Positions 8,440 through 15,655 of a stretch of 64,000 nucleotides of DNA are shown in pieces. The position numbers and the translations under genes were made by a program. Origin of the DNA: Beggiatoa leptomitoformis. Its GTDB lineage: Bacteria; Pseudomonadota; Gammaproteobacteria; Beggiatoales; Beggiatoaceae. The notes beneath the pieces are model-generated. The model did no database searches and had not been told where the DNA came from. It worked only from the letters and a program-made list of their open reading frames with translations. Each line of letters begins with the position of its first letter. The stretch's first letter is position 1. The stretch lies in assembly GCF_001305575.3 (NCBI RefSeq), contig NZ_CP012373.2:1798001-1862000 (forward strand). The letters run 5' to 3'.

Positions 8440-9188
8440 TCAAGCTAAAAGAATCAAGGTAGAAGCCAAATAAACCCCACTTAAGAAATTCCTAGCGCGT
8501 TTATCATATCGTGTAGCTATTGCACGATATTGCTTTAATTTACCAAAGAAATGCTCGATTAAATAACGTGCCTTATAAAGAGCTTTATCATAATCAGGTG
8601 GATTTAAACGATTTTTCCTGAACGGAATCACAGGTTCTATGCTTTTCTGTTTTAAAACATCTCTAACCCGTTCATCAGCATCATAAGCCTTATCAGCCAA
8701 TAAAGCGTTTGCCTTTATCTGAGGAATAAGAGCATCAGCCCCTTCAAGGTCGCTTGCCTGTCCCGCAGTCAAAAAAAAAGGGTCGGATTGCCCAGTGCGT
8801 CAACAACGGAGTTAATCTTGGTACTTAAACCCCCTGCGCTACGTCCAATGGCTTCATCCGCGCCACCACCACTACTATGTTGATGCGCTCTAACTATAGT
8901 GCTGTCTATCATGGCATATTCGTTATCAGCATCGGCACTTAGTATCTTGAAAACACGTTCCCAGACACCTTTCTGAGACCAACGACTGAAGCGGGTATGG
9001 ACAACACGGAAATCACCAAAGCGTTCGGGAAGGTCGCGCCAAGGAATGCCACTGCGATAACGGAATAGAACAGCATCAATAAACAAGCGGTTATCTTTAG
9101 CCGTCATCCCGACATGTCCTTTACGCCCAGGGAGTAGCGGTTCTAGTTTTGACCATTGTTCATCGGTTAAGGCATAGCGACGACTCAT
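8440..9188 (-). CDS. IS5/IS427-type transposase made by -1 frameshift
   Basis: DDE transposase in two frames. The first (9188 down to 8769, start chosen at MSRRYALTDEQW rather than a start inside the terminal repeat) has the DUF4096-type helix-turn-helix part, RSGIPWRDLPERFG, and the first catalytic Asp in YAMIDSTIVRAHQH. It ends NPTLFF-stop. The second (8772 to 8440) has LLADKAYD (second Asp) and LIEHFFGKLKQYRAIATRYDK, which carries the C-terminal Glu. The frames overlap at nine T residues (8779-8771 on the coding strand); a -1 slip there gives NPTLFFLTAGQ, restoring the usual family sequence. It looks functional rather than decayed. Confidence 0.88.
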
Positions 9189-9241
9189 TGTTTTATCCTT
9201 GGCGATATCTGGGTATATACCTATAATATAACACTTTTTAC

Positions 9242-9258
9242 TATTTGATGACACGCTC
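9242..9258. repeat. IS terminal inverted repeat (transposase 5' side)
   Basis: On the minus strand it reads GAGCGTGTCATCAAATA, matching the other end with one mismatch; TA follows at 9259-9260. Confidence 0.85.
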
Positions 9259-9376
9259 TAAGAATATTGTTGATTCACTGCATTTCGAGCAGCTTTGCAA
9301 GCCTGCTGCCAGACGGTTTTACGAAGTTTCGTAGCAGGTAGAACGTGGCTAAGTTTTGACGTTAGAGGAATTATTT

Positions 9377-12364
9377 ATGCTTGAGCAAGACATCGAAGAT
9401 TTATTGATTGAAAAATTAAACGACCTTAAATATATCTATCGTGCTGATATTCGTGACCGCGCAACCTTAGAACAAAACTTTCGCCAGCATTTTGAAGCGT
9501 TGAATCATATTCAACTAACGGATAAAGAATTTAGTCGGCTGTTAAATCAAATTACTCTCCCCGATGTTTTTACGGCGGCCAAATATTTACGTGAACGGAA
9601 TAGTTTCGAGCGGGATGATGGTACGCCACTACATTATACCCTTGTTAATATTAAAGATTGGTGCAAAAATACCTTTGAAGTTGTCAACCAATTACGCATT
9701 AATACTAATAATAGTTATCATCGTTATGACGTGATATTGCTGATTAACGGTGTGCCTGTGGTACAAATTGAATTAAAAACCCTCGCCATTAGTCCCCGAC
9801 GCGCAATCGAACAAATTATTGATTATAAAAACGACATCGGCAACGGCTACAGTAAAACCCTGCTTTGTTTTATACAACTGTTTATCGTTAGCAACCGCAG
9901 CGATACATGGTATTTTGCTAATAATCACCATCGGCATTTTAGTTTTAATGCGGATGAGCGTTTTTTACCCATTTATCAATTCGCTAATGAACATAATCAA
10001 AAGATTACCCATTTAGATAGTTTTGCTAAAGAATTTTTATCTAAATGCACATTGGGCGAAATGATTAGCCGTTACATGGTGTTGGTAAACAGCGAGCAAA
10101 AATTGCTGATGATGCGCCCTTATCAAATTTATGCGGTTAAAGCCATTGTCGATTGCATTCATCAACATTGTGGCAACGGTTATATTTGGCACACGACAGG
10201 CAGCGGCAAAACATTAACCTCGTTTAAAGCCGCTACCTTACTCAAAGATAATCCTGATATTGATAAATGCCTATTCGTGGTTGACCGCAAAGATTTAGAC
10301 CGCCAAACACGAGAAGAATTTAATAAATTTCAAGAAGCTTGTGTTGAAGAAAACACCAATACAGCCGCCCTAGTACAACGATTGCTTTCTGATGATTACG
10401 CCGATAAAGTCATCGTTACCACCATCCAAAAGCTCGGGCTTGCGCTTGATGACAATAGCAAACACGACAACGGAAAAAAGAAACACAACTATAAAGCGCG
10501 TTTAGAAACACAACGGAATAAACGCATGGTATTTATTTTTGATGAATGCCACCGCTCGCAATTTGGCGAAAATCACAAAGCAATTAAAGCCTTTTTTCCC
10601 AATGCGCAATTATTTGGCTTTACAGGCACACCAATTTTTGAAGAAAATGCCAGTTATCAACAGGTAGAAGGACAACAAGCCTCTCATAAAACAACCAAAG
10701 ATATTTTTCAAAACCAACTACATGCCTACACCATCACCCACGCGATTGAAGACCGTAATGTCTTACGCTTTCATATTGATTATTACAAAGCTGAGGGCGA
10801 AAACGCCCCAAATGCAGACACCATTATTGCCAAGCAAGCCATCGTCGATGCGATTTTTACCAAACACAACACTGCCACGAATGAACGCAAATTTAACGCG
10901 ATTTTGGCAACGGCTTCAATTAATGATGCGATTGAATATTATGAATTATTTAAAACCTTACAAACACAAGCGCACAGCGAACATAATGATTTTCAACCGC
11001 TGAATATTGCCTGTATTTTTTCGCCACCTGCGGAAGGCAACAAGGATGTAAAACAATTACAGGATGATTTGTTACAGGAAAAAGCGGATAACGAACAAAA
11101 CCCCGAAGAAAAGAAAGCCGCGCTTAAAATCATCATTGACGACTATAATGCCCGTTATAGCACTAATCACAGCATTAACGAATTTGATTTGTACTATCAA
11201 GACGTACAAAAACGCATTAAAGACCAACAATATCCTAATAGCGATTTGCCACACACGCAAAAAATAGACATCACTATTGTTGTAGATATGTTATTAACGG
11301 GTTTTGATTCTAAGTATTTAAATACGTTGTATGTTGATAAAAAACTTAAATATCATAATCTTATACAAGCATTTTCGCGTACAAATCGCATTCTCAATGA
11401 TACTAAACCTTATGGCAATATTTTGGATTTTCGCCAGCAACAAACCGCTGTTGATACGGCTATCGAATTGTTTTCTGGACATACGGCTAAATCGGCTAAA
11501 GAAATTTGGTTAGTTGATGATGCTGCGACGGTGATAACAGCGTTAGAAGATGCCATCAGAAACTTGGATAATTTTATGGTTTCTCAGGGGTTAGAGAATA
11601 CACCCAGTGCAGTGCCTAATTTAAAAGGCGATGTGGCCCGCAGTCAGTTTATTAAAGCATTTAAGGAAATACAGCGCGTTAAAACGCGACTTGACCAATA
11701 CACCGATTTAACGGCAGAGAATAAAGCATACATCGAGCAAATGTTGCCCAAAGACCAGTTGCAAGGTTTTAAAGGGGTTTATTTAGAAACGGCGCAACAA
11801 CTGAGAGAATTACAAGATAAAAAAGGCAATACAGCCCCCGCAGAAGTGCAACAACTTGATTTTGAGTTTGTTTTATTCGCATCTAGCATTATCGATTACG
11901 ATTACATTATGTCGTTGATTGCGCGCTATTCGCAACAACCGCCTGATAAACAGGCAATGAGCCGTGAAGAATTGATTAATTTGATTCAATCCGATGCTAA
12001 ATTTATCGATGAGCGTGAAGATATTGCCGAATATATCAAAACCTTAGAAACAGGCAACGGCTTGGATGTGCAGAACATTCGCACGGGTTATGAACATTTT
12101 AAGGCAGGGAAACAAACGCGCCAATTAATGACGATTGCAGATAAATATGGTTTAGAACTGAGTAGCTTACAAAGTTTTGTAGATGCTGTGTTGCGTCGAA
12201 TGGTTTTTGATAGTGAACAGCTTAATGAATTATTCGCTCCCTTGGGTTTAGGTTGGAAAGCCCGAGGACAAAAAGAGTCGGCTTTAATGGATGATTTAAT
12301 TCCATTATTGCATAAATGTGCTAAAGGTCGGGAAATTTCGGGGTTAGTGGTGTATGAACAGTAA
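9377..12364 (+). CDS. hsdR: Type I restriction enzyme, R (motor/nuclease) subunit
   Basis: A subunit of about 995 residues that translocates and cleaves unmethylated DNA in complex with HsdS and HsdM. The ATG at 9377 is chosen over an upstream TTG because AGAGGA lies just before it. The N-terminal nuclease domain has the PD-(D/E)xK pattern ending VVQIELKT, followed by a conserved RRAIEQI helix. The SF2 motor has Walker A TTGSGKT, FVVDRKDLDRQT, DEAD-box-like DECHRSQFG, the GFTGTPIF motif and the second RecA domain VVDMLLTGFDSKYLNTLYVD with AFSRTNR (motif VI). A helical C-terminal region follows. Its stop overlaps the hsdS start by 11 nt, indicating translational coupling. Confidence 0.95.
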   Translation: MLEQDIEDLLIEKLNDLKYIYRADIRDRATLEQNFRQHFEALNHIQLTDKEFSRLLNQITLPDVFTAAKYLRERNSFERDDGTPLHYTLVNIKDWCKNTFEVVNQLRINTNNSYHRYDVILLINGVPVVQIELKTLAISPRRAIEQIIDYKNDIGNGYSKTLLCFIQLFIVSNRSDTWYFANNHHRHFSFNADERFLPIYQFANEHNQKITHLDSFAKEFLSKCTLGEMISRYMVLVNSEQKLLMMRPYQIYAVKAIVDCIHQHCGNGYIWHTTGSGKTLTSFKAATLLKDNPDIDKCLFVVDRKDLDRQTREEFNKFQEACVEENTNTAALVQRLLSDDYADKVIVTTIQKLGLALDDNSKHDNGKKKHNYKARLETQRNKRMVFIFDECHRSQFGENHKAIKAFFPNAQLFGFTGTPIFEENASYQQVEGQQASHKTTKDIFQNQLHAYTITHAIEDRNVLRFHIDYYKAEGENAPNADTIIAKQAIVDAIFTKHNTATNERKFNAILATASINDAIEYYELFKTLQTQAHSEHNDFQPLNIACIFSPPAEGNKDVKQLQDDLLQEKADNEQNPEEKKAALKIIIDDYNARYSTNHSINEFDLYYQDVQKRIKDQQYPNSDLPHTQKIDITIVVDMLLTGFDSKYLNTLYVDKKLKYHNLIQAFSRTNRILNDTKPYGNILDFRQQQTAVDTAIELFSGHTAKSAKEIWLVDDAATVITALEDAIRNLDNFMVSQGLENTPSAVPNLKGDVARSQFIKAFKEIQRVKTRLDQYTDLTAENKAYIEQMLPKDQLQGFKGVYLETAQQLRELQDKKGNTAPAEVQQLDFEFVLFASSIIDYDYIMSLIARYSQQPPDKQAMSREELINLIQSDAKFIDEREDIAEYIKTLETGNGLDVQNIRTGYEHFKAGKQTRQLMTIADKYGLELSSLQSFVDAVLRRMVFDSEQLNELFAPLGLGWKARGQKESALMDDLIPLLHKCAKGREISGLVVYEQ

Positions 12365-13526
12365 TAAGAATTTGTTAGTGCCTAAATTGCGCTTTCCTGA
12401 GTTTTTGGGGGCGGGGGGGTGGGAGGGGGAAACATTGGGGGAAATAGGAGAAAATTTAGACTCTCAAAGAGTTCCTATAACAGAACAATATCGAATTAAA
12501 GGTAAAATTCCATATTATGGTGCATCTGGCATCATAGATTTTGTTAAAGATTTTATTTTTGATGAGGATTTACTCTGTATCTCAGAAGATGGCGCGAATT
12601 TAGTTACACGTACATATCCTATTGCATTTTCAATATCGGGAAAAACATGGGTAAATAATCACGTGCATATTTTAAGATTCAAAAATAAATCAACACAGTC
12701 AATGGTAGAAAACTATTTAAACTCAATAAGATTAGACTCATATTTAACAGGAATGGCACAACCTAAATTAAATAGGGCTAAATTAGATATTATTCCTGTT
12801 CCTTTACCTTCTCTCCCCGAACAACAAAAAATTGCCGATTGTCTCACCTCGCTTGACGACCTCATCATTTCAGAGACGCAACAGCGCGACGCGCTTAAAC
12901 GTCATAAAAAGGGATTGATGCAACAGCTTTTTCCCGCAGAAGGCGAAACTGTTCCTAAATTGCGCTTTCCTGAGTTTTTGGAGGCGGGAGAGTGGGAGGG
13001 GGAAACGTTGGGGGAAATAGGAGAAAATTTAGACTCTCAAAGAGTTCCTATAACAGAACAATATCGAATTAAAGGTAAAATTCCATATTATGGTGCATCT
13101 GGCATCATAGATTTTGTTAAAGATTTTATTTTTGATGAGGATTTACTCTGTATCTCAGAAGATGGCGCGAATTTAGTTACACGTACATATCCTATTGCAT
13201 TTTCAATATCGGGAAAAACATGGGTAAATAATCACGTGCATATTTTAAGATTCAAAAATAAATCAACACAGTCAATGGTAGAAAACTATTTAAACTCAAT
13301 AAGATTAGACTCATATTTAACAGGAATGGCACAACCTAAATTAAATAGGGCTAAATTAGATATTATTCCTGTTCCTTTACCTTCTCTCCCCGAACAACAA
13401 AAAATCGCCTCCTGCCTCTCCTCCCTTGACGACCTCATCACCGCCCAAGCCCAAAAAATTGCGGCACTGAAAAAACACAAAAAAGGACTGATGCAACAAC
13501 TCTTTCCCAAAACGTCTGAACTGTGA
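12354..13526 (+). CDS. hsdS: Type I restriction-modification specificity subunit with two near-identical target recognition domains
   Basis: HsdS (390 residues) selects the DNA sequence for both methylation and cleavage. It has two TRDs separated by conserved helices. Here the halves are copies: residues about 10-160 repeat at 201-351 with a period of 191 residues (573 bp). Each runs PKLRFPEFL-WEGETLGEIG to LPSLPEQQKIA and is followed by a conserved helix (SLDDLI...HKKGLMQQLFP). The DNA copies differ by only four bases, all in the first 55 nt. Normal HsdS proteins carry two different TRDs and recognise asymmetric bipartite sites; two equal TRDs predict a site with inverted equal halves. A G7 tract lies at 12413-12419 near the 5' end. 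Start overlaps hsdR. Confidence 0.93.
   Translation: MNSNKNLLVPKLRFPEFLGAGGWEGETLGEIGENLDSQRVPITEQYRIKGKIPYYGASGIIDFVKDFIFDEDLLCISEDGANLVTRTYPIAFSISGKTWVNNHVHILRFKNKSTQSMVENYLNSIRLDSYLTGMAQPKLNRAKLDIIPVPLPSLPEQQKIADCLTSLDDLIISETQQRDALKRHKKGLMQQLFPAEGETVPKLRFPEFLEAGEWEGETLGEIGENLDSQRVPITEQYRIKGKIPYYGASGIIDFVKDFIFDEDLLCISEDGANLVTRTYPIAFSISGKTWVNNHVHILRFKNKSTQSMVENYLNSIRLDSYLTGMAQPKLNRAKLDIIPVPLPSLPEQQKIASCLSSLDDLITAQAQKIAALKKHKKGLMQQLFPKTSEL
12381..12832 (+). repeat. Direct repeat copy 1 within hsdS
   Basis: 452 bp matching 12954-13405 with four mismatches, all at or before 12434; 12435-12832 is identical to 13008-13405. Period 573 bp, a multiple of three. Confidence 0.95.
12954..13405 (+). 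repeat. Direct repeat copy 2 within hsdS
   Basis: Second copy of the 452-bp unit. After the shared end the sequences diverge to ordinary conserved-helix similarity, so only the recognition domain and its edges are homogenised. Confidence 0.95.
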
Positions 13527-13625
13527 TTTATATGATTTATGCGGTTTATCTGATTTATATGATTAACTGATTAAAATCGTTATAATCATACTAATCATCT
13601 TAATCAAAAAAATCACAGTTTAGAC

Positions 13626-14051
13626 ATGATTAAAGAACAATACAAATACTCCGATTTAACCTCAAAAATTATCGGATGTGCCATGAAAGTACACTCCACG
13701 TTAGGCAGTGGCTTTCGAGAAGTCATTTATCAAAGAGCCTTAGCAATAGAAATGAACTTAGAAGGCATCGCCTTTAACAGAGAATTCGAAATGCCCATTT
13801 TCTACCGTGAACAACAAATTGGCACGCGAAGAGTCGATTTTTTAGTTCAAAATGTTATTTCTGTAGAATTAAAAGCCACCACCCAATTAGAAAATGTACA
13901 TTTTGCCCAAGCTATCAACTACCTAGAAGCCTACAACCTAGAAATTGGCTTATTAATAAATTTTGGAGAACTCAGCCTAAATTTTAAACGACTGAATAAC
14001 AAAAAATATAAAGCCCCCCTCACAAAAATCCAAAGTAAAAACCCACAATGA
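13626..14051 (+). CDS. GxxExxY family protein (PD-(D/E)xK-like fold)
   Basis: A 141-residue protein with KVHSTLGSGFREVIYQRAL, matching the naming motif of the GxxExxY family (G-F-x-E-x-x-Y), then RRVDFLVQNVISVELKAT, which supplies the D...E-x-K residues of a nuclease-like core, and a QAINYLEAYNLEIGLLINFG segment. The family is widespread and often scattered near repair and mobile genes; its substrate is not established. Here it lies inside a restriction-modification operon between hsdS and hsdM, overlapping hsdM by 4 nt (ATGA), so it is co-translated with the methylase. Whether it takes part in restriction is unknown. Confidence 0.88.
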   Translation: MIKEQYKYSDLTSKIIGCAMKVHSTLGSGFREVIYQRALAIEMNLEGIAFNREFEMPIFYREQQIGTRRVDFLVQNVISVELKATTQLENVHFAQAINYLEAYNLEIGLLINFGELSLNFKRLNNKKYKAPLTKIQSKNPQ

Positions 14052-15655
14052 CCGACCAAGACCAAAAACAACTAGGTACACTACTCTGGAGTATCGCCGA
14101 CCAGCTACGCGGCGCAATGAATGCCGACGACTTCCGCGACTACATGCTGTCCTTCCTGTTCCTCCGCTATCTCTCTGATAACTATGAAACAGCCACCCAA
14201 AAAGAACTGGGACAAGATTATCCCCATTTAGCAGAAGACGACCGCCGTCCGCCCTTAGTCGTTTGGTACGAACAAAATAAAGAAGACGTTGCCGAATTTG
14301 AAAAACAAATGCGTCGCAAAACGCACTACATCATAGAACCCAACTATCTATGGAGTAGCATTGCTGAACTGGCGCGCACGCAAAACAGCGAACTATTACA
14401 CACCATAGAAAATGCTTTTAAACATATTGAAGATGAATCTTTTTCTAGCACTTTTAACGGCTTATTCTCCGAAATTAACTTAAATTCGGAAAAACTCGGC
14501 AAGAATTACGAAACGCGCAACGCAAAACTTTGTAATATTATCAAAGCATTGGCAGAGGGACTTGCACAATTCTCAACCGATAAAGACACGCTAGGCGATG
14601 CCTACGAATATTTAATCGGACAATTCGCCGCAGGCTCGGGCAAAAAAGCGGGCGAATTTTACACCCCGCAACAAATTTCTAGCATTCTATCGGGCATTGT
14701 GACCTTAGACAGCCAAGACCCCGCAACAGGACAAAAGAAAAATTTATCGTCTATTTTAGATTTTACCTGTGGCTCAGGCTCGTTACTGCTAAATATCCGC
14801 CACCGTATGGGCATAAAAGGCATCGGCAAAATTTACGGACAAGAAAAAAACGTCACTACCTACAACTTGGCACGGATGAACATGCTATTACACGGTGTGA
14901 AAGATTCCGAATTTGAAATTCATCACGGCGATACCCTCATGAATGAATGGGATTATTTACGCGAAATGAATCCCGCAAAAATGCCAAAATTTGACGCAGT
15001 CGTTGCAAATCCACCCTTTAGCCTCCGCTGGGAACCTACCGACGCATTGGGCGAAGATATGCGGTTTAAAAATTATGGACTCGCGCCAAAATCTGCCGCC
15101 GATTTTGCCTTTTTACTGCATGGCTTTCATTATTTAAAAAATGATGGCGTAATGGCAATTATTCTGCCACATGGCGTGCTATTTCGCGGCGGTGCAGAAG
15201 AACGTATTCGTACCAAATTATTAAAAGATGGCAATATCGATACTGTTATTGGTTTACCACCTAACTTATTCTATTCTACGGGGATTCCTGTGTGCATTCT
15301 CGTGCTGAAAAAATGTAAAAAACCTGATGATGTGTTATTTATCAATGCGTCAGAATATTTTGAGAAAGGTAAACGTCAAAACCGTTTATTACCCGCACAC
15401 ATAGACAAAATTGTAGAAACGTATCAATTCCGCAAAGAAGAAGAGAATTATGCGCGCCGTGTGTCAATGGAAGAGTTAGAAAGCAACGGCTTTAATTTGA
15501 ATATTTCACGCTACATCAGCACGACACAACCCGAGGAAGAGATTGATTTATTAGCCGTTAATGCGGAACTGGCAAGCATTAACCAAGCTATCGCAACGGC
15601 TAAAGACCGCCACAATGCTTTCTTAAAAGAATTGGGCTTACCTATTTTGATTTAA
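14048..15655 (+). CDS. hsdM: Type I restriction-modification DNA methyltransferase subunit
   Basis: N6-adenine methyltransferase, 535 residues. An N-terminal helical HsdM_N domain (LLWSIADQLRG...DYMLSFLFLRYLSD) is followed by GEFYTPQQISSIL, the SAM-binding motif I DFTCGSGSLLLNI, and catalytic motif IV in VVANPPFSLRW (NPPF). C-terminal KGKRQNRLLPAHIDKIVETY is typical of the family. It works as M2S for modification and as R2M2S for restriction. The order R-S-x-M is unusual (M-S-R or R-M-S are commoner), and the start overlaps the preceding gene. No obvious terminator follows. Confidence 0.95.
   Translation: MTDQDQKQLGTLLWSIADQLRGAMNADDFRDYMLSFLFLRYLSDNYETATQKELGQDYPHLAEDDRRPPLVVWYEQNKEDVAEFEKQMRRKTHYIIEPNYLWSSIAELARTQNSELLHTIENAFKHIEDESFSSTFNGLFSEINLNSEKLGKNYETRNAKLCNIIKALAEGLAQFSTDKDTLGDAYEYLIGQFAAGSGKKAGEFYTPQQISSILSGIVTLDSQDPATGQKKNLSSILDFTCGSGSLLLNIRHRMGIKGIGKIYGQEKNVTTYNLARMNMLLHGVKDSEFEIHHGDTLMNEWDYLREMNPAKMPKFDAVVANPPFSLRWEPTDALGEDMRFKNYGLAPKSAADFAFLLHGFHYLKNDGVMAIILPHGVLFRGGAEERIRTKLLKDGNIDTVIGLPPNLFYSTGIPVCILVLKKCKKPDDVLFINASEYFEKGKRQNRLLPAHIDKIVETYQFRKEEENYARRVSMEELESNGFNLNISRYISTTQPEEEIDLLAVNAELASINQAIATAKDRHNAFLKELGLPILI

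Follow-up and report, generated by a model that had tools for sequence, protein, structure and literature searches.

A specificity subunit with two nearly identical target recognition domains, and a probable split palindromic site, in a type I restriction-modification locus of Beggiatoa leptomitoformis

Symmetric specificity subunits (HsdS) that read palindromic sites are uncommon among type I restriction-modification systems but already known. The closest described, as far as the portions of the papers drawn on for this comparison go, is Btr188II of Bibersteinia trehalosi, in which one target recognition domain (TRD) occurs twice in a type I S protein and the site is a palindromic, bipartite N6-methyladenine (m6A) site, m6ACGN6CGT; its M and S genes have been cloned, and the cloned pair methylates m6ACGN6CGT (PMC4996451). 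In Helicobacter pylori JHP1422/JHP1423 (M.Hpy99XV), an identical TRD2 and TRD3 together modify AAGN5CTT (PMC3936762), and in the half-size HsdS proteins, natural and engineered (JHP0785, CC398 half-S and EcoR124INT) one TRD used twice likewise gives a palindrome. Movement of TRDs is also on record: in the process called DOMO, repeats flanking the TRDs of H. pylori S genes let a TRD move between positions 1 and 2 (PMC3077401). Here we analyse the hsdS gene of an hsdRSM locus read within a 64,000-nucleotide stretch of the Beggiatoa leptomitoformis genome (the window; the whole genome is one contig of 4,265,317 bp). A first-pass annotation of the window had pointed to a duplicated TRD in this gene and to symmetric or half-size HsdS designs as precedents, and Btr188II and JHP1422 show that such precedents are in print.

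We consider it very likely that the internal symmetry of this HsdS arose through the overwriting of one TRD cassette by a copy of its partner, and that the type I enzyme reads a split palindrome. The TRD identity, the gene content, the spacer orthology and the absence of a second DNA match in the genome were computed here, and the motif table was taken from print. The gene and its parts are as follows.

12354..13526, + strand: hsdS, 390 residues, specificity subunit with one TRD in two copies; Pfam Methylase_S in two stretches
12381..12434, + strand: 5' conserved box of TRD copy 1 (PKLRFPEFL...), carrying all four mismatches to copy 2
12435..12832, + strand: TRD copy 1, 398 nucleotides identical to copy 2; G+C 31%
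12833..12953, + strand: central spacer, most of the coiled-coil helix 154-192 and then a linker; G+C 50%
12954..13007, + strand: conserved box of TRD copy 2 (PKLRFPEFL...), from the internal comparison
13008..13405, + strand: TRD copy 2, identical to 12435-12832
13406..13526, + strand: C-terminal spacer, most of the coiled-coil helix 345-383; G+C 50%

The TRD units lie 573 bp (191 codons) apart and in frame, a spacing obtained both from self-comparison and from a repeat search, and the open reading frame (ORF) is uninterrupted over its 390 codons. Comparing 12381-12832 with 12954-13405, mismatches are found only at 12409, 12416, 12418 and 12434, all within the first 54 nucleotides, and from there 12435-12832 equals 13008-13405 at 398/398 nucleotides. 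Self-comparison thus confirmed the repeat as first annotated, with four mismatches at its 5' end, 398 identical bp and a 573-bp period in frame. Past 12832 the identity stops abruptly, within the codons of a conserved LPEQQKIA segment, and 32 of 103 sites differ over 12833-12935, against 0 of 398 in the TRDs. If TRD divergence equalled spacer divergence, the chance of 398 identical sites would be ~1e-64, and the absence of any difference over 398 sites places a 95% upper bound of 0.75% on the divergence of the copies. Synonymous sites are identical as well, which points to copying in the recent past, or to conversion that still goes on, and not to selection on the protein. A genome-wide DNA search with hsdS returned, at E <= 0.001, hsdS itself as the sole match, and thus no second copy or DNA donor, while the other two S genes of the genome give only weak matches as protein (E 4e-6 and 1.5e-5). 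The check for phase variation covered the three S genes found by Pfam and the DNA matches to hsdS, of which there was no second one; recombinases at the locus were not searched for.

A structure model of HsdS, built on a 37-row alignment (A1, with 36 other S proteins picked by hand), had a mean predicted local distance difference test score (pLDDT) of 92.4 and a predicted template modelling score (pTM) of 0.83, and displays two TRDs, each followed by a 39-residue helix (residues 154-192 and 345-383). The model aligns with solved HsdS structures over nearly its full length, best with 1ydx (Z 25.8, root mean square deviation 5.7, 357 residues aligned), and with the EcoR124I complex 7bst_A at Z 20.6 and a root mean square deviation of 3.5 over 340 residues. 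As to the type IC (EcoR124I-like) subfamily, the observations point different ways: the likeness to EcoR124I lies in this match and in the EcoR124_C domain of HsdR, but a profile of the TRD (A2, from 18 other TRDs picked by hand) gave weak S matches only among solved structures and lists no EcoR124I chain at E <= 1.

Two strains of B. leptomitoformis have been closed from PacBio reads, D-402 with 4,265,296 bp and a 6,185-bp plasmid, and D-401 with 4,266,286 bp (PMC4675945, PMC5920184). We infer that the genome analysed is very probably that of D-402. The 2018 motif table links ACAYN5RTGT to S.Ble402ORF7560P, with m6A at 96.4% of sites in D-402, CAAYN4RTTG to S.Ble402ORF6900P (71.8% in D-402) and CAGN5RTAAT to S.Ble402ORF1460P (96.9% in D-402) (PMC5920184). 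A Pfam search of the genome found three S genes, near 331, 1663 and 1810 kb; divided by the tag numbers 1460, 6900 and 7560, these positions yield 227, 241 and 239 bp for each tag unit, and the order of the S genes together with these values would make hsdS, at 1810 kb, S.Ble402ORF7560P. A comparison of each S protein half against half leads to the same picture. In hsdS, 174 of 186 aligned residues are identical between the halves; in the S protein encoded at 1663 kb, 74 of 168 residues are identical, through the TRD; and in that at 331 kb there is only a short match (24/78). Two S proteins with homologous halves and one without correspond to two palindromes and one asymmetric motif, so that the two sets agree independently of the tags. 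The hsdS enzyme therefore very probably reads ACAYN5RTGT, given the printed motif table and our own link between motif and gene. The first-pass annotation had predicted a split site in which the two halves are the same and inverted, and both the published palindrome and the comparison of the three S proteins agree with it.

In Staphylococcus xylosus the modified base of the motif ACAYN5GGT is the one at position 3, as given in the part of that report used here (PMC10030836), and by analogy the methylated base of ACAYN5RTGT is expected to be A3 of both strands, at a distance of 8 bp. The half-site ACAY is also listed in other motifs, among them ACAYN5GGT in Staphylococcus and AGGN5RTGT in Pseudomonas aeruginosa, which give no independent proof that the hsdS TRD reads ACAY. 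The genome contains 192 occurrences of ACAYN5RTGT and 250 of its reversed pattern; for CAAYN4RTTG the corresponding counts are 559 and 468. These counts are uncontrolled for composition and permit no conclusion on avoidance.

Several points weigh against this assignment. The chromosome analysed exceeds the published length for D-402 by 21 bp, a difference that could reflect a later version of the record. The motif-gene links of the 2018 table stand under the heading 'gene predicted' (PMC5920184), and no cloning of hsdS is described in PMC4675945 or PMC5920184. The 2015 table had ACAYN5RTGT as a type II motif without a gene (PMC4675945), and in D-401 the motif was missed by the pipeline and then confirmed by hand (PMC5920184). 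An exchange of the two palindromes is conceivable, whereby hsdS is palindromic but reads CAAYN4RTTG, and ACAYN5RTGT belongs to the S gene at 1663 kb; the halves are homologous in both S proteins, and the published links are labelled as predicted. We judge such an exchange improbable, as the gene order places hsdS at tag 7560, and as CAAYN4RTTG was linked as early as the 2015 table to a named S gene, ORFB (presumably the later ORF6900), and ACAYN5RTGT to none (PMC4675945). Even if both palindromes were swapped between the genes, the motif of hsdS would still be palindromic.

The origin of the symmetry can be followed in a same-genus genome (G001), in which the locus reads hsdR-hsdS-(another gene)-hsdM, with HsdR 73.9% and HsdM 81.1% identical to those of the window. 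The TRDs of its HsdS give short, chance-like matches only to the window TRD (5/23 and 10/20 residues). Against the two spacers of this orthologue, the central spacer of the window hsdS has 80.5% identity with the first and 65.5% with the second, and the C-terminal spacer 82.0% with the second and 70.8% with the first. As the spacers match position by position and the TRDs are unrelated, the two-half scaffold must predate the TRD pair, and nothing but a TRD cassette was copied. The boxes preceding the TRDs are alike between the halves in both genes, at 45/49 nucleotides in the window and 44/49 in the orthologue, and by analogy with the DOMO repeats of H. pylori such near-identical boxes may serve as a ready handle for recombination. 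The direction of copying is not discriminated by them, the N-terminal and middle boxes of the window matching both boxes of the orthologue at 39 to 40/45. The slot between hsdS and hsdM in G001 holds a different gene of 352 residues (L152 4093-5151), perhaps an ATPase as judged by eye, and a draft relative (G024) carries pieces of the TRD family in broken ORFs that are too fragmentary to use.

A recent duplication or gene conversion, as first proposed, is thus supported, and the limits on identity and the G001 spacers narrow it to copying of a TRD cassette inside an existing two-half gene. The accompanying proposal of a recent change in specificity is likely to hold, but no allele with the earlier second TRD was found; this counts against our reading too, in that the recency and direction of copying are deduced. 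Two equal TRDs would also result if a half-size HsdS gene, comprising TRD and spacer, had been duplicated in tandem, and one locus (L029) has a short S ORF of this TRD family, of 227 residues; the 900 nucleotides downstream of it, read in three frames, contain none of the four S marker strings looked for. Such a duplication is nonetheless less probable again than the exchange of motifs, because the spacers differ at 32/103 sites and the TRDs at 0/398, and because the spacers are closer to their respective counterparts in G001 (80.5% and 82.0%) than crosswise (65.5% and 70.8%). That the assembly is at fault, with a single TRD or a different second TRD really present, is hardly credible: repeats are prone to mis-assembly and the raw reads lay outside the analysis, but the sequence around each copy is different, as are their 5' boxes, the genome of the presumed strain, D-402, was closed with HGAP3/Quiver from PacBio reads at 422x (10- and 20-kb libraries; PMC4675945), D-401 was assembled separately with its methyltransferase genes stated to be identical (PMC4675945, PMC5920184), and the motif assigned to hsdS is palindromic.

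We therefore return to copying of a TRD cassette, for which the following route is the most likely. Homologous recombination would start in the near-identical box of ~50 nucleotides before each TRD and end at the conserved LPEQQKIA segment after it, converting one TRD to the sequence of the other and leaving both coiled-coil spacers unchanged. The antiparallel spacer helices would then hold the equal TRDs inverted, so that each TRD reads the same half-site on opposite strands. An enzyme with two HsdM subunits, presumably an M2S assembly, would methylate the split palindrome, and together with HsdR, if restriction is active, unmethylated palindromes would be restricted. Crossing-over between the copies would delete 573 bp to leave a half-size S gene, or would yield three TRDs. 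Neither product would carry a new half-site, so a new specificity would need a foreign TRD; the first-pass suggestion that recombination of the repeats could change the specificity again is for this reason not borne out.

How common such genes are was judged from a survey of the best 80 of at least 552 loci, a selection that favours this TRD and the conserved boxes around it. Judged from sequence, the hsdS TRD is a widespread module: among the higher-ranking matches, in the S proteins of 27 relatives (ORF >= 350 residues; 5 shorter ORFs excluded) the TRD family stands at position 1 in 11 and at position 2 in 16, and a TRD tree implies at least 8 position changes, with only 6 of its 29 inner branches well supported. 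The second-best internal match in these 27 is weak (score <= 104; 33/112, at L041), and none of them thus carries a close copy of the TRD twice. Halves were compared in the 68 of the 80 loci with an S ORF of at least 350 residues (12 shorter ones excluded). One locus of a Bacteroidetes genome, L097, has halves alike at 162/196 residues, the next best of the 68 being 79/183, and no exact internal repeat in the set exceeds 95 nucleotides, the longest one. In a control set of 42 S genes, picked by eye among the matches listed from 115 genomes of the same class, no halves are more than 50% identical and the longest exact repeat is 51 nucleotides. An exact repeat as long as the 398 nucleotides of hsdS was found in none of the 110 other S genes compared, although symmetry in itself is shared by other S proteins, as L097 and the 1663-kb S protein illustrate. 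The HsdS of L097 (5941-7206), with halves 83% identical and a TRD weakly similar to that of the window, is another natural symmetric S protein, and the 1663-kb HsdS (L001), assigned CAAYN4RTTG (PMC5920184), is the second one in the B. leptomitoformis genome.

Among plasmids, 124 records have a tblastn match to the TRD, and 3 of the 25 among the matches listed have two places. The halves of the S proteins concerned match at 69/166 residues in Enterococcus gilvus and 60/169 in Lactiplantibacillus plantarum, the Klebsiella stretch has an ORF of 202 residues, and no fresh TRD copy pair was found in these three two-place stretches. The halves of the E. gilvus plasmid S protein (L157 2407-3546) resemble each other and the window TRD family, with TAEL repeats between them. 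In E. coli, partial matches to the TRD DNA occur in 23 of 5426 genomes, with none over 80% of the query.

The genes surrounding hsdS are all on the + strand, in the order hsdR, hsdS, GxxExxY gene and hsdM, and the locus is, by its gene content, a complete type I restriction-modification system.

9356..12364, + strand: hsdR, 1002 residues, restriction/translocation subunit; Pfam HSDR_N, SWI2_SNF2, T1R_D3-like and EcoR124_C
13626..14051, + strand: GxxExxY / PDDEXK_3 gene between hsdS and hsdM; TIGR04256 at 135.4 bits (cut-off 35), PF13366 at 6e-39
14048..15655, + strand: hsdM, 535 residues, adenine methyltransferase subunit; N6_Mtase at 2e-101, HsdM_N

The hsdR gene ends 11 bp into hsdS. HsdR passes NCBIfam TIGR00348 (388.7 bits; cut-off 284.55), and its domains cover the nuclease, the SF2 motor and the C-terminal part; HsdM passes TIGR00497 (381.8 bits; cut-off 242.75), and hsdS matches PADLOC Specificity_I at 2.6e-118. 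In the profile matches at the locus, nothing ties the GxxExxY gene to the type I enzyme, and the family has 3 strong matches and 1 weak match in total genome-wide. Between hsdS and this gene, an AT-rich imperfect inverted repeat lies at 13514-13625 (51-nucleotide arms, 71%), fragments of which match near the type I S genes of L060 (Saprospiraceae, close to both S ORF ends), L042 and L097; it possibly travels with GxxExxY genes or their neighbours. Adjoining hsdR, an IS4/5-type transposase occupies two overlapping frames on the - strand (8440-9254).

The identity of the TRDs is unmentioned in both papers on B. leptomitoformis (PMC4675945, PMC5920184), and among the matches listed in a search for literature on identical or duplicated TRDs, with subscription journals and REBASE outside the search, there was no paper on hsdS. 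The exact string ACAYN5RTGT was found only in PMC4675945 and PMC5920184 by full-text search, with subscription journals again outside it. From the S sequence, a motif labelled as type II and left without a gene could have been predicted to be the palindrome of a type I enzyme. The genome offers a natural test of the TRD code, holding identical TRDs with a published palindrome, a diverged symmetric S protein and an asymmetric one, and the copying of the TRD cassette would be one step of type I specificity change, caught before mutations blur it. It is a tentative and rather doubtful extension of this that symmetry is a recurrent, tolerated and perhaps favoured state of HsdS here, with two of the three type I S proteins symmetric, one newly made by TRD copying and the other old and diverged yet, going by the published table, palindromic to this day; they would stand early and late, respectively, on the same route to palindromic sites.

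Set beside the known systems, hsdS shares most with Btr188II, from which it differs in that the Btr188II copies are described as imperfect, in the passages of that report used here, and those of hsdS are identical over 398 nucleotides; the half-site and spacing are also different (PMC4996451). Besides its identical pair, the natural S protein of JHP1422 carries a further TRD that differs from them, and it has two sites, whereas hsdS has only the pair, and half-size HsdS proteins are thought or have been shown to dimerise from two short chains, whereas the hsdS copies lie in one chain. DOMO was deduced by comparing numerous strains within a single species, and the present case from one allele, one same-genus orthologue and the flanking boxes. 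These statements on JHP1422, half-size HsdS and DOMO again follow the portions of the sources drawn on. The 1663-kb HsdS of the same genome has, like hsdS, homologous halves and a palindromic motif, but its halves are diverged, which indicates an older symmetry. Among these systems, hsdS is a new and unusually clean case.

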